Of a stretch of DNA of 64,000 bases, positions 34,266 to 46,190 are shown in pieces. The DNA lies in contig OW799233.1 in the NCBI GenBank assembly GCA_941918925.1, positions 48,383,341 through 48,447,340 of the forward strand. Reading direction: 5' to 3'. The notes below the pieces were generated by a model that made no database searches, was not told where the DNA came from, and saw only the letters and a list, made by a program, of their open reading frames with translations. The first letter of the stretch is position 1. Each line of letters begins with the position of its first letter. The position numbers and the translations under genes are program-made. This stretch comes from Phyto melanocephala (Eukaryota > Arthropoda > Insecta > Diptera > Rhinophoridae).

Positions 34266-34499
34266 ATAAATAAACAATAAGCACAAACATTGACAACTTG
34301 ATAACCTGAAAGATGATAATTTAGTTGTATAAATAAGTCTACCTGGTTTTCTTGTACCATGGTATGCAATATAGGTAAAATAAAAATTGCACAATTTACT
34401 TACTTTTTCTATGTCAATTAAAATGTCAAAAAGTTTCAAATGGTGTTCTGAAAATATAAATAATGTTCGCGCCTGTCCTGCCTTGCATCGTTGTATAAA

Positions 34500-34560
34500 C
34501 CGCACTATGTAAAACGTACCATGTAAATACACTGTGTAAATGCACCCTTACATAGTGCGG
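34500..34560. promoter_or_regulatory. Perfect 13-bp inverted repeat in U3
   Basis: CCGCACTATGTAA (34500-34512) and TTACATAGTGCGG (34548-34560) are exact reverse complements around a 35-nt spacer. They recur unchanged in the 3' LTR at 41622-41682. The position upstream of the TATA box suits a dimeric factor site or DNA hairpin; function is inferred. Confidence 0.6.
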
Positions 34561-34652
34561 TGAGTCGGCGCTATACGCACGCCGGTAAAAGTTCTACTTA
34601 ACTTAGTAGTTCAATTGAATTTAATAAAGTGAACAGTCGCCAACTTGTTTTG

Positions 34653-34660
34653 TATAAAAA
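34653..34660 (+). promoter_or_regulatory. LTR TATA box
   Basis: TATAAAAA lies in a GC-poor context between U3 and the presumed R region, with the same box at 41757-41764 in the 3' LTR. Transcription would start roughly 25-35 bp downstream; no initiator was confidently placed. Confidence 0.5.
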
Positions 34661-34885
34661 GGAAAATTAATGTAAAAATTAGAATTAAACTTTAAAATAA
34701 AAATAAAAGAAAAATAAGGAAACAATAAAAATTAATATAACGAAAAAGTGTTGATTAACGCCACAAAAAAAAAAGTGTTTTATTAAAAGGAAGACATAAA
34801 TAAGTGAAAAAGCCAGACAGAATCAGTGCAGTGACACTCAACACCAACAACCTGGAAACCAGCATCCCTCAAGAGGTAAACATTT

Positions 34886-34909
34886 TGGTCCTTCTCCCGG
34901 CAATTTGAA
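34886..34909 (+). other. Primer binding site, tRNA-Tyr-like
   Basis: Three bases after the LTR, TGGTCCTTC begins a segment ending TTTGAA. The first nine bases match the complement of CCA plus the 3' acceptor end of insect tRNA-Tyr as I remember it, with later imperfect matches (CCGG, TTTGAA). Minus-strand priming at this spot is standard for LTR elements; the tRNA identity is tentative. Confidence 0.5.
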
Positions 34910-34914
34910 ATAAA

Positions 34915-34923
34915 AAGGTGCGT
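34915..34923 (+). promoter_or_regulatory. Candidate splice donor in leader
   Basis: AAG|GTGCGT, with GT at 34918-34919, closely matches the MAG|GTRAGT consensus. It lies after the primer binding site and before gag, as retroviral major donors do. A second option is AGAG|GTAAAC at the LTR end (GT at 34876-34877). Either could feed the acceptor at 40539. Confidence 0.42.
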
Positions 34924-35266
34924 ACAGTGAATATATTTTTGAAATTACAAAAAGTGTCTCAGTGCGGCATAAAATTTGTGTCTCGGTTGGAATTTATTAA
35001 TTATAAAGAGCAACGGTACATTTTACTGTAAAAACCACTATTCCTGCGTTTTTGTTGTTTCACAAAATTTGCACATATTTTGTCGCCTTTTAAATTTGTT
35101 GTTGTTCAAAAGAATTTGATCTGGAAATACATTGGAATTTTTAGAATTTTTTGTTGGCGCTTTTTTTTCGGTTTACTTTGTTGTTCTTGCCTTTCATTTT
35201 TACGATAAGTGTTTCCCAAACTTTTCTGTCGTGGTTCTCTCTAATTGGTATTAAATAAAATAAAAA

Positions 35267-37036
35267 ATGTCAACATTTGATAAATATATCCGTGCGGCAG
35301 ATGAAGTTATTAGTTTTGAGGCTAATCTTAAAGATCAAGACCTCTCAGGCTACACTATAGAGGCCTTTGATTTCGAGAAAGAGGAACTTGGTAAAATTTG
35401 GGAGAAATATAAGAAAATTTTTAATGAATGTTCTGATGACACGGTAGAGAAGAAAAAGGAAATGGTAGTGGTTCAAACGAAACATCCACAGGTTCGTAGA
35501 ACATATATACGATGTATTAACATAATTTCTAAAGCCGAACAAAAATTAAAAGGAAATATTCAAGAAAATGTTAATACAGTAGTTCCCAACCTTTGTAGTT
35601 CTTTATCTGTCCCTCCGTGTGATACTGGTGTTTTTCATGGCGATTACGTGTCGTGGCCTACATTTAGAGATATGTTCACGGCGATTTACATTAATAACAG
35701 CAGACTTAGCCCTGTAGAAAAATTATTTTATTTATTTCAAAAAACTAATGGTGAAGCCCGCGACATCAATAGAAATGTGGCCTTGACGGGAGAAAATTTC
35801 GACATTGCGTGGAACAATTTGAGGTCCCAATATGAAAATAAAAGAGTTCTAATCAATACTCAGCTCAAGTCTCTTTTCAATTTAGCCCCTTGTTTACAAG
35901 AAACAGCTTCTGAAATAAAAAGACTGCAAAGAGAGATAAATAATTGTATGTCTATTTTAAAGTTATACAAAGTTGATATTAGTTCATGGGATCCTATTTT
36001 TGTATTTCAATGCTCGTCACGTCTCTCAGAATGCACATTGAATCTTTGGGAACAATCAGTGAAAAATAAAACGGAGGTCCCCAGATGGGAGGAATTAAAT
36101 AGTTTTCTCACTGATAGATATCATGCGCTTGAAAGTGTCTCAGACATTATTGCAACGAATAGTGCATCTGTAAGTGGTTCCCAATATTTTTCAAATAACA
36201 ACAATCAAATGTCAAAAGTTAAGCAATTTAAAGCCCATCATACTAAAGTTGATGCACAGAAATGTGTATTATGTAAGGAAAACCACAAAATTAGTTTTTG
36301 CGAAAAATTTTTAAGTATGAACTACAAAACTCGTGTTTCAACTTTGAAAAGATTCCGGTTTTGTTTCAATTGTCTCTCTATTGGCCATATGTATGGTGAC
36401 TGTAATAGTGCAAATGGTTGCTCCAAGTGCAAGAAAAAACATCATACATTGATGCATAGAGATTTTGTAAGGGCAAATAATGCAAGTCAAACACAATTCA
36501 ATAAGTTTTCTCATGGCGAAAGGCAAAGTAATTCAGTTCAAACCATACAGTCCACTAATGCTCCTGGTCCATCAGGAGTTATTCAATCTCACCACACGTC
36601 TGTTTCAAAGAAGGTTATGTTGGCGACAGCTTGGGTTCATATTGTTAGTTTTGGTTCTTATTACAAGGTGCGGGCTCTAATTGATCCATGTTCTGATGAG
36701 AGTTTTATTTCCGAAAGAATACAAAAACTTCTGAGGTTGCCCACTAGTCCAGTATCAGCTGAAGTTACGGGTCTAGGAGGAGATATAATAAGCAGATCTT
36801 CTAAGTTGGCAACGTTTGTTATTGTATCACTTTTCAATCAGGATGTGTCTCTTAATGTTCAAGCTTTAGTCGTGCCTCGTGTAACTGGTAGTGTCCCAAC
36901 ACATTCGTTTAACCCATTAACTAGCAATAAACTACCAAAATTGAATTATGCTGATCCAAAGTTTTACGAAAGCAGTGAAGTAGATTTATTATTAGGAGGT
37001 GATTTGTATCCCTTCATTCTTCGTGATGGAGTCTAA
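35267..37036 (+). CDS. BEL/Pao Gag with zinc knuckles and A16-type protease
   Basis: 589 codons starting in a good context (AAAAATG) after a 384-bp leader in which I see no upstream ATG. Residues 120-300 hold the Gag domain common to BEL elements (FHGDYVSWPTFRDMF near 123-137). Residues 333-397 form the knuckles: C333-C336-H340-C345, C366-C369-H374-C379 and C385-C388-H392/H393-H397. Residues about 450-585 are the retropepsin-like domain, with active-site IDPCSDESF (Asp473) and LLLGGD near the end. In BEL elements this normally continues without a stop into reverse transcriptase. Here TAA at 37034-37036 ends it at the protease/RT junction. Confidence 0.9.
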   Translation: MSTFDKYIRAADEVISFEANLKDQDLSGYTIEAFDFEKEELGKIWEKYKKIFNECSDDTVEKKKEMVVVQTKHPQVRRTYIRCINIISKAEQKLKGNIQENVNTVVPNLCSSLSVPPCDTGVFHGDYVSWPTFRDMFTAIYINNSRLSPVEKLFYLFQKTNGEARDINRNVALTGENFDIAWNNLRSQYENKRVLINTQLKSLFNLAPCLQETASEIKRLQREINNCMSILKLYKVDISSWDPIFVFQCSSRLSECTLNLWEQSVKNKTEVPRWEELNSFLTDRYHALESVSDIIATNSASVSGSQYFSNNNNQMSKVKQFKAHHTKVDAQKCVLCKENHKISFCEKFLSMNYKTRVSTLKRFRFCFNCLSIGHMYGDCNSANGCSKCKKKHHTLMHRDFVRANNASQTQFNKFSHGERQSNSVQTIQSTNAPGPSGVIQSHHTSVSKKVMLATAWVHIVSFGSYYKVRALIDPCSDESFISERIQKLLRLPTSPVSAEVTGLGGDIISRSSKLATFVIVSLFNQDVSLNVQALVVPRVTGSVPTHSFNPLTSNKLPKLNYADPKFYESSEVDLLLGGDLYPFILRDGV

Positions 37037-37057
37037 CATGGTATTTTTGAATCCTTA

Positions 37058-38902
37058 GTGGCTCAAGAAACAATTTTTGGTTGGATTGTAACTGGCCCAA
37101 CACCCAGTAATGGTTCCACACGATCAGTAAGAATGTCTCATATGACAAGAGTCTCCATAGATGACCATTTGACAAAGTTTTGGGAGTTAGAAGAAGTTTC
37201 TCGTAAAAAGGTTCTATCAGAAGAGGATAAGAAATGTGAGATCTATCGTTCTACTACCACAAGAAATTCTAAAGGGAGGTATATTGTTAGTCTGCCCTTT
37301 AAGAATAATATTGCTTCACTTGGTCCAAATAGACATATTGCTCTTAGTCAATATTTAAGAAATCAGAAATCATTATTGCGTAAACCAGAATTTAAGGCTC
37401 AATACGATGAGGTCCTTAAAGAATATTTAACTTTAGGACATATGGAGAAACTCAGAGGTTCTGAAAGTGGTCCGAGTTATTATTTACCTCATCACGGAGT
37501 TTTTAAGCCCGAAAGTACAACAACAAAATTGAGAATAGTTTTTAATGCCTCTAGTGCGACTTCTAGTGGTAAGAGTCTCAACGACATGTTGTACGTAGGC
37601 CCCATTTTGCAAGCTGATTTGGTATCTTTGATTTTGAAATGGCGATTTTATCAGTTTGTATTTAATGCGGATATTGCGAAAATGTATCGCCAAATTTTAG
37701 TAAATCCTGAACACAGACCTTTTCAAAAAGTTGTGTTTCGTAGTTCAGTAGATAGTAAGATTGAAGATTTTCAACTGAAAACGGTCACTTTTGGTGTTAA
37801 TTGTGCTCCTTATTTGGCCCTAAGAACGATACTTCAATTGGCTGATGACGAAGAACTACGTTTTCCACTCGGCGCTCGAATATTGCGAGAGTGTATGTAT
37901 GTTGATGACGCTCTTGTAGGGGCTCATTGTATTTCTGATGCTTTGGTGGCACGAGACCAATTAATTGGTATATTACAGACTGCAGGGTTTGAGTTAAGAA
38001 AATGGACGTCAAACTCAAAGCAAATTTTAAAAAATTTGCCCCAAGAGCATTTACTAAATTCGAATTTTTTGTCGCTCGATGATAAGAGCACAACTAAAAC
38101 GCTTGGCGTACGCTGGAATGCAGCAGAAGACGTTTTTTATTTTTCAACTGAGAAAATTAAACTCAAGCAATCGTACACAAAACGGGAAGTTCTTTCAATT
38201 ATTGCTCGCCTTTTTGATCCAGCGGGCTGGTTAGGCCCAGTAGTTATCAAAGCCAAAATTTTAATGCAGCAAATGTGGCTCGATAAAATAGATTGGGATG
38301 ACCCGATAAAACCACTGGCTCTTACTAAATGGCAATCTTTTATTACAAAATATAATGATATCGACTCAATAAAACTTCCCCGATGGATTGAATATACCCC
38401 AGACTGTCACATTGAGTTTCATGGTTTTTGCGACGCATCTGAGTTAGCTTATGCAGCCACAATATATGTTAGAATTAGTTTTGGTGATAAAGTTTACACC
38501 AATTTGCTCACTTGTAAAACGAAAGTGGCTCCAGTGAAAAAACCATCATTGCCACGCTTGGAATTATGTGGAGCAGTGCTTTTGGCAAATTTGTTTAATA
38601 GTGTAGTTCCTAATTTAAATTTAAATTCGTATATTTTATATTTGTGGTCCGATTCTACAATTGTGTTAGCTTGGCTTCGAAAACCACCTTGTAATTGGAA
38701 AACGTTTGTGGCAAATAGAGTCGCTACTATTTTAGAAAAAGTTGGTAACAAAAATTGGTTTCATGTACCTACGAATTACAACCCTGCCGATCTAGCAACC
38801 CTGGGGCTGACTCCTTCTGAACTACGAGAAAACAAACTTTGGTGGCAAGGACCTGATTGGCTCAGGTTAGATAAATCTTTGTGGCCCCAAACTCCGTTAT
38901 AA
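37058..38902 (+). CDS. BEL/Pao reverse transcriptase and RNase H
   Basis: Same frame as Gag; the open frame actually begins right after the TAA at 37036, with no ATG start near. The fingers/palm region includes KLRIVFNASS (158-167), DIAKMYRQI (Asp205) and the catalytic YVDD (281-284). The Pao-type RNase H follows: HGFCDAS (Asp459), LPRLELCG (Glu502), LWSDSTIVLAWL (Asp532) and YNPADLA (Asp578). It copies the genomic RNA into DNA and removes the RNA strand. Expression would need readthrough of the upstream TAA. It ends at TAA 38900-38902, between RNase H and integrase. Confidence 0.88.
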   Translation: MAQETIFGWIVTGPTPSNGSTRSVRMSHMTRVSIDDHLTKFWELEEVSRKKVLSEEDKKCEIYRSTTTRNSKGRYIVSLPFKNNIASLGPNRHIALSQYLRNQKSLLRKPEFKAQYDEVLKEYLTLGHMEKLRGSESGPSYYLPHHGVFKPESTTTKLRIVFNASSATSSGKSLNDMLYVGPILQADLVSLILKWRFYQFVFNADIAKMYRQILVNPEHRPFQKVVFRSSVDSKIEDFQLKTVTFGVNCAPYLALRTILQLADDEELRFPLGARILRECMYVDDALVGAHCISDALVARDQLIGILQTAGFELRKWTSNSKQILKNLPQEHLLNSNFLSLDDKSTTKTLGVRWNAAEDVFYFSTEKIKLKQSYTKREVLSIIARLFDPAGWLGPVVIKAKILMQQMWLDKIDWDDPIKPLALTKWQSFITKYNDIDSIKLPRWIEYTPDCHIEFHGFCDASELAYAATIYVRISFGDKVYTNLLTCKTKVAPVKKPSLPRLELCGAVLLANLFNSVVPNLNLNSYILYLWSDSTIVLAWLRKPPCNWKTFVANRVATILEKVGNKNWFHVPTNYNPADLATLGLTPSELRENKLWWQGPDWLRLDKSLWPQTPL

Positions 38903-39007
38903 TTTCAAACTTCAGAAGATTCAAAAAGAGTCCAAGTTAATGTTGCTCGATCGTCTGAAATAGAAGATGTACTTGACCGGTTTTCGAGTTTACCCAGAGC
39001 TCTTCAT

Positions 39008-40465
39008 GTGATTTCTTACTTGTTTCGATTCTATCACCTCACCCGTAAAAACCTTTATAAGGATGTTAAGTATGATACAACGAGAATTACAGCGACTGAA
39101 TTAGCCTTTGTGCGTAACCGGTTGTTTTTCTTATCTCAACAAAAACACTTTCTAAAAGATTTCAACTGTTTGTTGTCGAAGAAAAAACTTGATTCTCGTA
39201 GCCCTTTATTAACCCTTTCTCCGTTTCTGGATAAAAATAAAATCATTCGAGCTAACGGTCGCCTTGGTTCAACCACTTGTCTGTCCTACAATGAAAGACA
39301 CCCTATAATACTAGCGTATGGCAGTAGGTTATCACGTCTTTATGTAGAATTTGTTCATAAATTAGTTCATCATGGTGGTACTCGTTTAGTCTTGAATGTT
39401 GTCCGTCAGGAGTGTTGGATAATAAAGGTTAAAAATCTGATCAAAACAGTTGCTCACAATTGTAAAATCTGTGTTTTGCATCGTAAAAAACTTCAAACTC
39501 AGATTATGGCAGCGTTACCGCAAGAAAGAACTACGTTGAGTCGTCCCTTTTCAAACACAGGTGTCGATTTTGCTGGCCCATTTGACATCAAGAGCTTTAC
39601 TGGTCGATATTGTCGCATAACAAAAGGCTACGTGTGCCTCTTTGTTTGTTTCTCTACCAAGGCGATACACCTTGAACCAGTCAGTGATTTATCTACTCCC
39701 GCATTTCTTGCCGCTTTGGCTCGATTTATTTCACGCCGTGGTTGTCCTAATCGCATTTTTTCCGATAATGGCAGAAATTTCGTTGGCGCTGCAAAGGAAC
39801 TAGCGGTTAATTTCCAGAAGCATATCAAAGAGCTAAGTGACAGAGCCGTTTATAAGTATGAACATCAACATTTACAATGGCATTTTATACCCGCTGCAGC
39901 TCCACGTATGGGAGGCTTATGGGAGGCGGGAGTAAAGAGTGTGAAAATGCATTTCAAGAAAATTGCGGGGCAATCGAAATATACGTTCGAAGAGTTTTCC
40001 ACACTTTTGGCACAAATCGAAGCTTGTCTTAATTCACGTCCTCTTAGTTCTATGTCGGATAATGCAACCGATTTGTCTGCTCTTACTCCAGGTCATTTTT
40101 TAATAGGTTCCGCATTGCTAGCTCCTGCTGAACCTGAAGAACTTAGTTCGCATATTACCACTATTAACCGTTGGCGTAAAGTTAGGGCGCTACAACAAGA
40201 ACTTTGTCGTCGTTGGAAAGAGGAGTATTTGAAAGAACTACATAAACGCAGTAAATGGAAAACTCCTCAACTAAGCATTAAAGAAAACGACTTAGTTGTC
40301 CTAAGAAATGAACCATGCGCCTCTACTGAGTGGCGCTTAGGGCGTATAATAAAAACTTATCCTGGTACCGATGGTAGGATTCGGGTTGTAGATCTAAAAA
40401 CACAAAATGGTGTAATCAAGAGACCTATCCACAAATTAGTGCTATTGCCGAATTATGCAAATTAA
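39008..40465 (+). CDS. BEL/Pao integrase
   Basis: Same frame as gag and RT; the frame is open from 38903, so 39008 is only the first ATG. It has an N-terminal HHCC zinc-binding region (H117, H121/H122, C152, C155). The catalytic core is TGVDFAGPF (Asp187), FSDNGRNF (Asp253) and GGLWEAGVK (Glu306). The C-terminal domain has WRKVRALQQELCRRW, WRLGRI and RPIHKLVLLP, the usual close of BEL integrases. It joins the cDNA to the host chromosome; the 5-bp AATAA duplication is its expected footprint. No internal stop or frameshift. Confidence 0.9.
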   Translation: MISYLFRFYHLTRKNLYKDVKYDTTRITATELAFVRNRLFFLSQQKHFLKDFNCLLSKKKLDSRSPLLTLSPFLDKNKIIRANGRLGSTTCLSYNERHPIILAYGSRLSRLYVEFVHKLVHHGGTRLVLNVVRQECWIIKVKNLIKTVAHNCKICVLHRKKLQTQIMAALPQERTTLSRPFSNTGVDFAGPFDIKSFTGRYCRITKGYVCLFVCFSTKAIHLEPVSDLSTPAFLAALARFISRRGCPNRIFSDNGRNFVGAAKELAVNFQKHIKELSDRAVYKYEHQHLQWHFIPAAAPRMGGLWEAGVKSVKMHFKKIAGQSKYTFEEFSTLLAQIEACLNSRPLSSMSDNATDLSALTPGHFLIGSALLAPAEPEELSSHITTINRWRKVRALQQELCRRWKEEYLKELHKRSKWKTPQLSIKENDLVVLRNEPCASTEWRLGRIIKTYPGTDGRIRVVDLKTQNGVIKRPIHKLVLLPNYAN

Positions 40466-40500
40466 ATGCCTTTTGTTTTCACTCCCTCAAACTTTCTACC

Positions 40501-40539
40501 TTAACTAACACGTCTCTCTTTACCTTTATCCAATTTTAG
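40501..40539 (+). promoter_or_regulatory. Candidate splice acceptor before the extra ORF
   Basis: A branch-point-like CTAAC (40505-40509), a pyrimidine-rich tract and TTTTAG ending at 40539 lie 6 bp before the ATG at 40546. Spacing of branch A to AG is about 31 nt, normal for fly introns. It would let a subgenomic RNA express the downstream ORF, as env is expressed in retroviruses. Confidence 0.5.
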
Positions 40540-40545
40540 TTCAAT

Positions 40546-41250
40546 ATGTGTGATGGTTTTTTCAACCCCAATTTTTGTTGCCCATTGTGTAATCGTATGC
40601 ACGCAATCCGTCAATGCTCTCGATTTGTTGTTATGGACGTAGAGCGAAAACTGCGAACCGTGGCCCAAAACTCGTTGTGCTACAACTGCTTAGCTCAATC
40701 ACATAACAGAGCTGACTGCAAGAGCATCGATAGGTGCCGGCGTTGCATGCAAGATCACAACTCTTGGTTGCATCCGATTCCTGAAAATCGCGTGTGGGTT
40801 CAAATGACAGCCCATGTTCGTGTCATTACCCGACTTGGCCGACAAGCAAGTTTGACTCGTGCCGTTATTGACCCCACTGCGTCGAGATCGTCAATAATGT
40901 TCTCAGAAGCCGAAGAAATGCATTGCGTGATTAACCGTGGACGAACCATTATAACGGTACTTCATGGGCACGAAGACGGGCATCGCCAAATAAAACTAGA
41001 GTGTGTGGTGGAAAAAAAAGACTATGGCCATAGCCCAAACGTAGATCTCGACCCAAAGGAGGAATATATGAGATGCAGCTTATCCGCTAATCGTTATTGG
41101 TACCGTAGACGAAGATATTATATCATTTTGGGAGCAGACGTGACAAGCAAAATTTTGAAAGGACCCACTAAAGGACGACCTGGTGACATATATGTACAAG
41201 ACACCATTTTTGGGAAGGCTTACTTCGGTGAAGCAAAAAAGAAGCAATAA
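40546..41250 (+). CDS. Extra 3' ORF: zinc-knuckle plus protease-like protein
   Basis: 234 codons, in a different frame from pol, in the slot used for env in some relatives. Residues 12-24 (C12-C15-H19-C24), 45-58 (C45-C48-H53-C58) and 64-76 (C64-C67-H71-H76) repeat the exact three-part knuckle layout of this element's Gag. Residues about 87-228 parallel the protease: AVIDPTASRSSI (Asp109 at the active-site position), IILGADV (193-199) and QDTIFGKAYFG (218-228), the last matching the start of RT. It therefore looks like a diverged nucleocapsid-protease copy. Base composition seems richer in G+C than gag-pol. There is no signal peptide or membrane segment, so it is not an envelope. Proteolytic activity is unproven. 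Confidence 0.75.
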   Translation: MCDGFFNPNFCCPLCNRMHAIRQCSRFVVMDVERKLRTVAQNSLCYNCLAQSHNRADCKSIDRCRRCMQDHNSWLHPIPENRVWVQMTAHVRVITRLGRQASLTRAVIDPTASRSSIMFSEAEEMHCVINRGRTIITVLHGHEDGHRQIKLECVVEKKDYGHSPNVDLDPKEEYMRCSLSANRYWYRRRRYYIILGADVTSKILKGPTKGRPGDIYVQDTIFGKAYFGEAKKKQ

Positions 41251-41585
41251 AATTCATATATTTTATTTATATTTGTAGCTCTTGAATTTCACCTAAATCC
41301 TTTGTTACCCTTGTTAAGTAGTTTATAATTAGATAACATTATCCTTGAATTGATCTCATTTTCTTTTTTTTATATTAATGAATATTATTTTACCCACATA
41401 TAAAAGGTAATAAATGAATTTAATCACTGTCTCAGTATACAAACCATTTAAAATGTAATTACCTTTTGTAGCTCACTTTGTATAAATTATTATTTGGTTC
41501 GAATTTATATGCATTCTAAATTGTAATATGTAATAAATAGTTAAGTTCAATCTTATTTTGCACTATTGTTGCAAGGGAGGCGGTA
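41251..41585 (+). other. 3' untranslated region and polypurine tract
   Basis: AT-rich and non-coding. The purine tract AAGGGAGG (41573-41580) followed by CGGTA immediately precedes the 3' LTR and should prime plus-strand synthesis. Confidence 0.6.
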
Positions 41586-41986
41586 TGTTCGCGCCTGTCC
41601 TGCCTTGCATCGTTGTATAAACCGCACTATGTAAAACGTACCATGTAAATACACTGTGTAAATGCACCCTTACATAGTGCGGTGAGTCGGCGCTATACGC
41701 ACGCCGGTAAAAGTTCAATTGAATTAAATAAAGTGAACAGTCGCCAACTTGTTTTGTATAAAAAGGAAAATTAATGTAAAAATTAGAATTAAACTTTAAA
41801 ATAAAAATAAAAGAAAAATAAGGAAACAATAAAAATTAATATAACGAAAAAGTGTTGATTAACGCCACAAAAAAAAAAGTGTTTTATTAAAAGGAAGACA
41901 TAAATAAGTGAAAAAGCCAGACAGAATCAGTGCAGTGACACTCAACACCAACAACCTGGAAACCAGCATCCCTCAAGAGGTAAACA
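41586..41986 (+). repeat. 3' LTR
   Basis: 401 bp, same ends as the 5' LTR. It lacks an 18-bp segment present in the 5' copy, leaving a single AGTTC where the 5' LTR has two. The U3 inverted repeat (41622-41682) and TATA box (41757-41764) are conserved. Confidence 0.95.
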
Positions 41987-42088
41987 AATAATTTAAAAAC
42001 ATTATTTAGATTTGATTTAGTATTTTATTTCAGGTTACATGTGAAAAAGTGGGATACGGCATATAGAAACGTATCAATTAAGTTGAAA

Positions 42089-44028: not shown

Positions 44029-46190
44029 TTTTATACCCGCCACCAAAAAAATGGTGGGGGTATATTCATTTTGTCATTCCGTTTGTAACACATCGAAATA
44101 TCCATTTTAGACCCCATAAAGTATATATATTCTGAATCAGGGTTTGATTTGATGACGATCTAGCTATGTCCGTCCGTCTGTCCGTCTGTTGAAAGCACGA
44201 TAGAGGTCGCACCGAAAAAGCTAGGGGGCTCAAATTTTGCCAGAATCCTTCTTATAGACAAGGTTAGTTCATTATTGAAAATGGGCTATATCGGAATATT
44301 AGGAAGAGAGTTATAGCTCGAAAAGCAAGAGTAGGTTGAAAAAACCGTGTCCTCCGAACATCGAATAAAATGGAATTGTGTCCAAACGCATTAACGTAGA
44401 CTCATAAAACTTCGAATATATATTTCCTAAGTAAAAACAATATTTTTTTTCGAAACTTATCTAAATCTATGCATTAGGAGAGGAGTTACCGATCAAAATG
44501 TACGAAAATTTATACCGCACAGTGTATTTTTCGGTAAATTTAAAAACAAAAACGTCATAAAAGCAACAAAATTGGATGTACGACTCTGAAATTTTGCACA
44601 CTTTGCTTTTTGGTGAAAGGCTTTTTTGTAACTGAAAATCAATGTGCCACACCCACTTTTACGCCCACCTCCCATATAACGTTTTAACCAAAATACATAT
44701 AATTTCTCTATTAATATAGATTTTGGAATAATAATGGACTATATTGAAATATCTAAGTTGTTTTCATTTTCAAAAACAACTTTGACAGGCCTACTATAAC
44801 GCCCACTTTTCACGTTATCTACCGTTAATGAAATTTAAAAGCTCATAAAACCGCCAAAATTAGAGGTATAATGATAAAATTTGCTACGTATATCCCCCTA
44901 GGCAATGTCATTACTGTGCCAGAAAATTTAGGTGCCACGCCCACTTTTACGCCCACCTCCCATACAACGTTTTACCTAAAATTCATATAATTTCTCTATT
45001 AATAAAGATTTTGGAATAATAAAGGACTATATTGAAACACCCAAGTTGTACTCATTCGCAAAAACAACTTTGACACGCCTACTATAACGCCCACTTCTCA
45101 CGTTATCTACCGTTAATGAAATTTAAAAGCTCATAAAACCGCCAAAGTGGCATGATGATAAAATTTGCCACGTATATCCCCCTAGGCAGTGTCATTTTTG
45201 TGCCAAAAAATTTAGGTGCCACGCCCACTTTTACGCCAACCTCCCATATAACGGTTTATCTTAAATTCATGTAATTTCTCTATTGTCAAAGTTTTTGGGA
45301 AAATAAAGGACAATATTGAAATATCTAAGTTGTATTTATTAGCAGAAACTATATTGACACGCCTACTTTAACGCCCACTTTCATTGAAAGACTACAAAAG
45401 CATTTTAGTAGCTTATCGAAGTTATAAAGGGTGGTTAAATTTTAAGGACCGATGTTGAATTAAAATAAAACACAATTTATTTAGGATATTATTATTATTT
45501 CTTTTTATATTGATAATATTTGAATGGTTCAATTATGTATTTAACAAAATATCGGCCAAATGGCCCCCCCCCATCCTTGGCGCCACTCCTCTATCTGATG
45601 GTCCAAATTTTCAATGACAATGTTGATGCTCAATTGTTGGGCATGATGATGAGTCGAGGTTGACCGCTCTTTTGTCACACTATCTCAAAAACCAGCTGTG
45701 GTTCCCATTCAACGAACTAAGAAGGCATTCACAGATTTTCTGACATTTTATACAGACCTGTTTTGCAGAAATTTAAATATTTTTTACAATTCTCCCGAGG
45801 GTAGACGAATTTGAACGATTATGTTGATCAAAAGAATTACGAAGTGAACAAAATGCATTTTGATTTGAACGCCCATTTTTATAAAAAACCTGAATAACTT
45901 CAAAGCATTGCTCATTTGCGTATCTTTCCGCGGATCAAATTGAGTTAGTTTTAGATTCAGAAATGTCAAATGAAATGCAGAAAACAAATTTAAAGACTAG
46001 GTGTAGTTCACCTTCCACATGGGCCCTTAAAATTTAACCACCCTCTACAAAGAAAGTGATACATATTTTATTATAAAGAGATTATTCCATAGCGATTAAC
46101 AAAATAATAAATATTGAGTTTTAAATGTACACAGAATTGGTGGTGGGTATAAAAGATTCGGCACAGCCGAATATAGTGCTCTTACTTGTT
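44029..46190 (-). mobile_element. mini-me/DINE-1-like element, family C copy 3
   Basis: Starts TATACCCGCCACCAAAAAAA and ends with TTCGGCACAGCCGAA plus TATAGTGCTCTTACTTGTTT. It contains GTCCGTCCGTCTGTCCGTCT near 44168 and three tandem units of about 290 bp marked by ACGCCCACCTCCCATA (about 44660, 44953, 45240 with variation). It carries the same nested mariner-type element as C1, at 45427-46045. Frames at 44467-44675 and 45784-45987 are repeat sequence. Confidence 0.62.
45427..46045 (-). mobile_element. Mariner-type element nested in family C copy 3
   Basis: TIRs AAGGGTGGTTAAATTTTAAG and CTTAAAATTTAACCACCCTC, flanked by TA (45425-45426 and 46046-46047). It is the same element, at the same position in the host repeat, as 4479-5087. 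It retains only a broken N-terminal transposase piece and two conserved, apparently non-coding blocks, including a C-tract near 45560. Confidence 0.62.

Follow-up and report, generated by a model that had tools for sequence, protein, structure and literature searches.

The ICTV profile of Belpaoviridae gives these elements gag, pol, and env-like genes only (PMC8742986), and few BEL/Pao elements are described as having env (PMC3118150). The nucleocapsid (NC) of BEL elements is described as following a pattern of two CCHC zinc knuckles and a third, Pao-like Cys/His motif (PMC4580426). The C. elegans LTR retrotransposon Cer1 encodes CERV, the N-terminal half of which has peptides in common with GAG; CERV is made from a spliced mRNA, and its Cys loop is described as being required for the export of genomic RNA (PMC10309623). 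In Ty1, the Gag fragment p22 is described as limiting copy number (PMC4599808, PMC8458377), and p18m as an all-helical capsid-like domain (PMC8458377). Elements of the MDG1 group carry sORF2, described in a preprint as encoding a short transmembrane, fusogen-like protein upstream of gag (PMC11952523).

Within the window, which is the whole 64,000-nt stretch of DNA that was analysed, a single BEL/Pao element occupies positions 34464-41986 and comprises paired LTRs, Gag-Pol, integrase, and a separate open reading frame of 234 aa, here called ORF3 (Table 1). The element is flanked by a 5-nt target duplication, AATAA (34459-34463 and 41987-41991), and this short duplication, the TG..CA ends of the LTRs, and the order gag-PR-RT-IN with Pao peptidase A17, DUF1759, and DUF5641 are those of Belpaoviridae; a primer-binding site complementary to tRNA-Arg or tRNA-Gly is a further trait of the family, and the 5' LTR here is followed by a stretch that resembles a primer-binding site. 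In-frame stops interrupt Gag-Pol of the window copy at 37034 and 38900, and its ORF3 is open; in other copies, the Gag-Pol frames are open for about 1735 codons. Downstream of the element, at 44616-45430, the window also holds three tandem copies at a spacing of about 285 nt (100, 89, and 68%).

Table 1. Features of the BEL/Pao element in the window (positions of the window, first letter = 1)
Feature	Position	Strand	Remark
5' LTR	34464..34882	+	TG...CA ends
Primer-binding-site-like stretch	34886..34903	+	Shortly after 5' LTR; similar stretch after the LTR in 10 other copies
Predicted splice donor AAG/GTGCGT in leader	34915..34923	+	8/9 consensus positions; intron would begin at 34918
Gag-to-protease frame: DUF1759, NC (36263-36457), aspartyl protease	35267..37036	+	Closed by in-frame stop in window copy
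Pol: RT and Pao peptidase A17 region	37058..38902	+	Closed by in-frame stop in window copy
Integrase with DUF5641 tail	39008..40465	+	
Predicted splice acceptor	40512..40539	+	Pyrimidine-rich tract, AG at 40538-40539, 6 nt before ORF3 ATG
ORF3, free-standing NC-PR gene, 234 aa	40546..41250	+	Between integrase and 3' LTR
ORF3 zinc knuckles 1-3, residues 12-76	40579..40773	+	Ligand conservation
ORF3 retropepsin-fold domain (predicted), residues 82-230	40789..41235	+	Structure model
ORF3 Asp109	40870-40872	+	
ORF3 LGAD	41128-41139	+	
Purine-rich tract directly 5' of 3' LTR	41573..41583	+	
3' LTR	41586..41986	+	Pairs with 5' LTR

A preliminary description of this locus had placed a second nucleocapsid-protease (NC-PR) module in the env position of the element, and the present analysis agrees: ORF3 carries three zinc knuckles that fit the BEL nucleocapsid pattern, the structure prediction contains a retropepsin fold, and profile comparison finds ORF3 homologous to the Gag NC-PR along almost the entire ORF (hhalign probability 100). 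None of the three findings that the description had named as refuting it, namely absence of the ORF from other copies, absence of purifying selection, and a protease-like part unrelated to retropepsins, was obtained. At the 12 knuckle ligand columns, the residue is kept in 98-102 of the 102 rows of the ORF3 alignment. The window ORF3 has neither DUF1759 nor any other Pfam match, and its alignment to Gag begins at the NC. A sequence search of the PDB with ORF3 returned nothing significant (best E 0.18), and a Foldseek search with the ORF3 model returned no match reaching E 0.001, the top row being an unrelated transporter (E 0.0024). The same early description had seen no envelope features, and we likewise found no transmembrane features in the structure model, in which the longest helix spans 10 residues; an env identity of ORF3 was rejected on this ground.

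ORF3 is not confined to the window. Of the full-length ORF3 matches listed in the same ~740-Mb genome (52-100% identical), 52 of 60 are without stops, and in the copies fetched with their flanks, ORF3 lies behind integrase wherever both were found (L015 contains two ORF3 copies, one of which has no integrase within the fetched stretch). A second search, with inspection of the loci, yielded four more BEL lineages (B-E, the window element being lineage A) with an NC-PR ORF directly after integrase, the lengths in lineages B, C, D, and E being about 272, 305, 301, and 381 aa. Free-standing proteins of lineage A are recorded in the protein database from Lucilia sericata and L. cuprina, those of lineage B additionally from Cochliomyia hominivorax, and those of lineage C additionally from Calliphora vicina, Stomoxys calcitrans, Haematobia irritans, and Musca domestica; these blow-fly and muscid homologues come from the protein records of three length-filtered searches. 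From Drosophila, these searches returned only two DUF1759-bearing proteins of Gag type (D. kikkawai and D. persimilis), and no lineage-E Gag was found, the fetched stretch L045 containing no element match. Two records named for a moth, Eumeta japonica (P0062 and P0090, on 13,989-bp contigs), contain a Gag and a lineage-C-like ORF3 that shares 60% identity with its fly counterpart; they may reflect contamination from a fly (parasitoid) or transfer.

ORF3 is under strong purifying selection. Among eight lineage-A copies from different subfamilies, the median pN of ORF3 was 0.26 and the median pS 0.82, with pS exceeding pN in 28 of 28 pairs, compared with pN/pS of 0.055/0.263 for Gag and 0.019/0.147 for Pol in the same copies; because pS is saturated, dN/dS was computable for just 4 of the 28 ORF3 pairs (median 0.107). 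Both halves of ORF3 are constrained (NC pN 0.134, PR pN 0.338; 36 pairs), and the same holds for lineage B (10 pairs) and lineage C (3 pairs). Three very close ORF3 pairs gave ratios of 0.58 (window-L011), 0.61 (L020-L024), and 0.15 (L022-L023), of which the first two may represent partly decaying copies. For integrase, in which copy L013 is frameshifted, the median pS was 0.46 in the 21 pairs remaining after its 7 pairs were removed. A chance ORF was rejected on the strength of this selection together with the open copies. It is also scarcely credible that ORF3 is a passive, functionless leftover of a Gag duplication: the clean loss of the gene in one sister subfamily (described below) would suit such a leftover, but purifying selection in both halves and in three lineages contradicts it, and the 52 open copies and the presence of ORF3 in several fly genera also speak against it. 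An antagonist of host defence, for instance of small-RNA silencing, acting via RNA binding, would account for ORF3 being the most divergent product of the element (median amino-acid identity between subfamilies: ORF3 61%, Gag 90%, Pol 96%), but the synonymous sites have diverged in step, which points to older alleles more than to fast protein change, and we regard this role as very improbable.

The fate of the catalytic residue bears on what the protease half might do. The Asp is retained in 21 of 22 rows of lineage A, 56 of 57 of lineage C, both rows of lineage E, and 5 of 20 of lineage B, and is replaced by Asn in the remaining 15 lineage-B rows and in the sole row of lineage D; in lineage B the predicted retropepsin fold persists despite this replacement. 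A trans-acting protease had been among the functions first suggested, namely a free retropepsin guided by its knuckles to RNA or Gag and cleaving Gag-Pol or a host protein. In its favour is lineage C, in which the Asp is nearly constant (56 of 57 rows), Ser/Thr is next to it in 56 rows, and Gly stands two positions on in 49; Pfam RVP_2 is also matched by 8 of the 31 ORF3 members scanned (best E 0.00033). Cleavage is not general, however, given the losses in lineages B and D and in one row each of A and C, and purifying selection persists in lineage B despite the loss of Asp; we accord this explanation little probability.

Retropepsins need two chains, and ORF3 might be a self- or competitor-limiting inhibitor, its retropepsin half pairing with the Gag-Pol protease and its Asp-less form poisoning the dimer, such that maturation would drop as copies rise. 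In favour of such an inhibitor are the Asn that stands in place of Asp in lineages B and D and the fold that is still predicted for B, and Ty1 p22 offers a precedent (PMC4599808, PMC8458377). Set against this are the retained Asp of lineages A, C, and E and the low identity of the ORF3 and Gag proteases (17% in the profile alignment), which makes mixed dimers less likely. Furthermore, Ty1 p18m works via a capsid domain, and the p22-type capsid C-terminal domain of Gag is not present in ORF3; capsid interference of the Ty1 p22 kind, also raised at the outset, is a poor fit for a protein that lacks a capsid portion. Inhibition is, on this evidence, distinctly unlikely.

As to origin, the preliminary description had argued for capture from another BEL lineage and not for a recent local duplication. 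A recent local duplication was indeed rejected, given the 32% identity of the ORF3 NC to that of the element's own Gag. Capture was not supported. In an NC-PR tree of 57 rows, comprising 49 ORF3s and 8 Gags from four of the ORF3-bearing lineages (A, B, C, and D), a branch with support 99/98 separates all Gag rows from the ORF3 rows, and this split was recovered in all 200 bootstrap trees. The split was kept with weaker support (88/73, 89% of bootstraps) in a 62-row tree from which 12 rows had been removed and to which 12 ORF3s and the Gags of Lucilia, Teleopsis, Drosophila, Armigeres, and the Eumeta record had been added (P0092 was left out, as was P0099, in which no NC was found); both trees are unrooted and have several long branches. 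The position of the Gag rows favours one old duplication over capture, and the simplest reading is a single duplication before the lineages parted, followed by inheritance with the element. Capture into the window element alone was rejected in view of the occurrence of ORF3 in five lineages and of these trees. The base-composition shift that had been noted recurs in all seven further lineage-A copies tested, GC3 in the lineage being 40-50% in ORF3 versus 27-31% in gag and pol; lineages B and C show a narrower gap.

Median nucleotide identities between subfamilies (28 pairs of 8 copies) were 56% for the LTR, 84% for the leader, 89/95% for gag, 95/96% for pol, 93% for IN 5', 80% for IN 3', 61% for ORF3, and 55% for the 3'UTR. 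The elements are mosaic, with a gag-pol body in common and an LTR, integrase 3' half, ORF3, and 3'UTR that are subfamily-specific; ORF3 types therefore travel with their LTR. Balancing selection on ORF3 types was rejected as an explanation, the identity gradient being equally explained by recombination limited to similar stretches. The linkage also touches on whether ORF3 is a particle-bound extra nucleocapsid, which would be packed with Gag-Pol, serve dimerisation or reverse transcription as another RNA chaperone, and have no nuclear role. Linkage of each ORF3 type to its own LTR, 3'UTR, and integrase 3' half is expected if a type-specific RNA signal is read, and the three-knuckle NC is nearly invariant; the linkage would, however, follow equally from a plain lack of 3'-end homology for recombination, and ORF3 has no capsid-type assembly domain to bring the protein into particles. 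We consider an extra nucleocapsid unlikely, if worth keeping in view.

The sequences flanking ORF3 suggest how it might be expressed. Scored against the splice donor consensus, a donor-like AAG/GTGCGT lies 32-35 nt past the LTR in 10 of 11 leaders, and an acceptor-like pyrimidine-rich stretch with AG precedes the ORF3 ATG in 23 of 24 loci from five lineages; of the other ATGs within these loci, which served as controls, 263 of 2626 have one. These 24 loci are related to each other, and the acceptor rule was fixed after part of the stretches had been inspected. The predicted acceptor lies 3-10 nt upstream of the ATG across loci, the sole miss (L021) ends in AGAG, and L036, which could not be placed, was left out of the count. 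From the acceptor-like AG and the leader donor, we predict that ORF3 is translated from a spliced mRNA joining the leader donor to the acceptor before its ATG. In two gene models, P0037 (Calliphora vicina) and P0081 (Musca autumnalis), other sequence is joined at, or immediately upstream of, the start Met of ORF3, an arrangement that, as models only, would fit use of the ORF3 acceptor.

Some copies amplify without the gene. The Gag frames listed that reach 600 codons or more number 46; for 33 of them an ORF3 row was listed 2.5-6.5 kb downstream (two of these rows being the partial ORF3 of a deletion derivative), and for 13 none was. In all five of these 13 Gag-Pol copies that were inspected, the gene is absent and the open frames span 1466-1734 codons. 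In L047, L048, L049, and L051, the integrase stop is followed after about 105 nt by the 3' LTR, a clean loss of ORF3, and in L050 only a remnant of ORF3 is left; these five copies form a sister subfamily of the window element that lost ORF3. The leader donor is kept in all four ORF3-less leaders covered (L052-L055). Given the five inspected copies, ORF3 is not needed in cis, being either dispensable in cis or complemented, and copies without it may use ORF3 in trans. The deletion derivative (L025:5283-6692 and L026:5342-6751) has integrase joined to the protease half of ORF3 and lacks the integrase tail and the ORF3 knuckle half; it occurs in at least four places among the matches listed, two of which were fetched (further places are G000:C2:86905389 and C2:12817696). 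The 355-nt direct repeat (LTR) that flanks it in L026 is 100% identical, which indicates recent movement of this derivative, likely with help from other copies.

Our leading interpretation, held tentatively and with slightly less than even confidence, is that ORF3, a conserved third gene, likely arose from one old duplication of the Gag NC-PR and encodes an RNA-binding dimer that would act on unspliced RNA of the element itself. Any element with a spliced gene also needs its unspliced RNA to leave the nucleus and to reach particles. The zinc knuckles would bind the genomic RNA of the element; in lineages B and D the retropepsin fold, as modelled, would provide dimerisation and not cleavage; and the protein would assist the nuclear export or packaging of unspliced RNA, by analogy with what CERV does for export. 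ORF3 should act in trans because the ORF3-less sister subfamily also amplified. Against a role as dimer only, the near-constant Asp of lineages A and C (21/22 and 56/57) suggests that catalysis may matter there. That ORF3 is a Gag-born, Rev- or CERV-like regulator of genomic RNA, with the retropepsin serving as a non-catalytic dimer scaffold in some branches, is possible but rather doubtful. RS repeats were set aside as a hint of nuclear function: RS dipeptides exceed shuffles in lineage C (4.44 versus 3.44) and in the single lineage-D row, and in lineage B they are no commoner than in shuffles. Lineage A has no basic N-terminal tail.

As an accessory gene of an LTR element, ORF3 is new in its make-up, which is NC-PR alone. 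In the open-licence literature, the titles and beginnings of abstracts listed yielded no free NC-PR ORF in BEL/Pao, and a curated entry (Repbase) is possible. BEL/Pao elements are described with gag, pol, and sometimes an env-like gene, and ORF3 adds a further route to an accessory protein, the copying of an element's own Gag. The Asp and Asn forms of one predicted fold and the ORF3-less subfamily together provide a comparison set for a non-catalytic role of retropepsins, and the ORF3 variants likewise for the export of unspliced RNA in elements with spliced genes.

Compared with the NC-PR of BEL/Pao Gag-Pol, ORF3 is homologous nearly end to end, but it is free-standing after integrase, lacks capsid and RT, and has often lost the Asp in some lineages. 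Env genes are usually expressed from a spliced message, and ORF3 resembles the env-like third genes of Belpaoviridae in position and in its predicted spliced expression; unlike them, its model is without membrane features. ORF3 and Ty1 p22/p18 are both element-encoded pieces of Gag produced apart from Gag; ORF3, however, lacks the capsid and is a paralogue that has diverged from Gag and occupies a separate position in the element. As with sORF2, ORF3 is an accessory gene in insect elements without env, whereas sORF2 is described as transmembrane, fusogen-like, and upstream of gag. CERV occupies the same position in its element as ORF3 and comes from a spliced mRNA, demonstrated for CERV and predicted for ORF3; the two differ in that ORF3 is a full NC-PR copy and in that a requirement for export is demonstrated for CERV and inferred for ORF3. 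We do not place ORF3 in the CERV family but liken the two by description, and ORF3 may work in a similar way.
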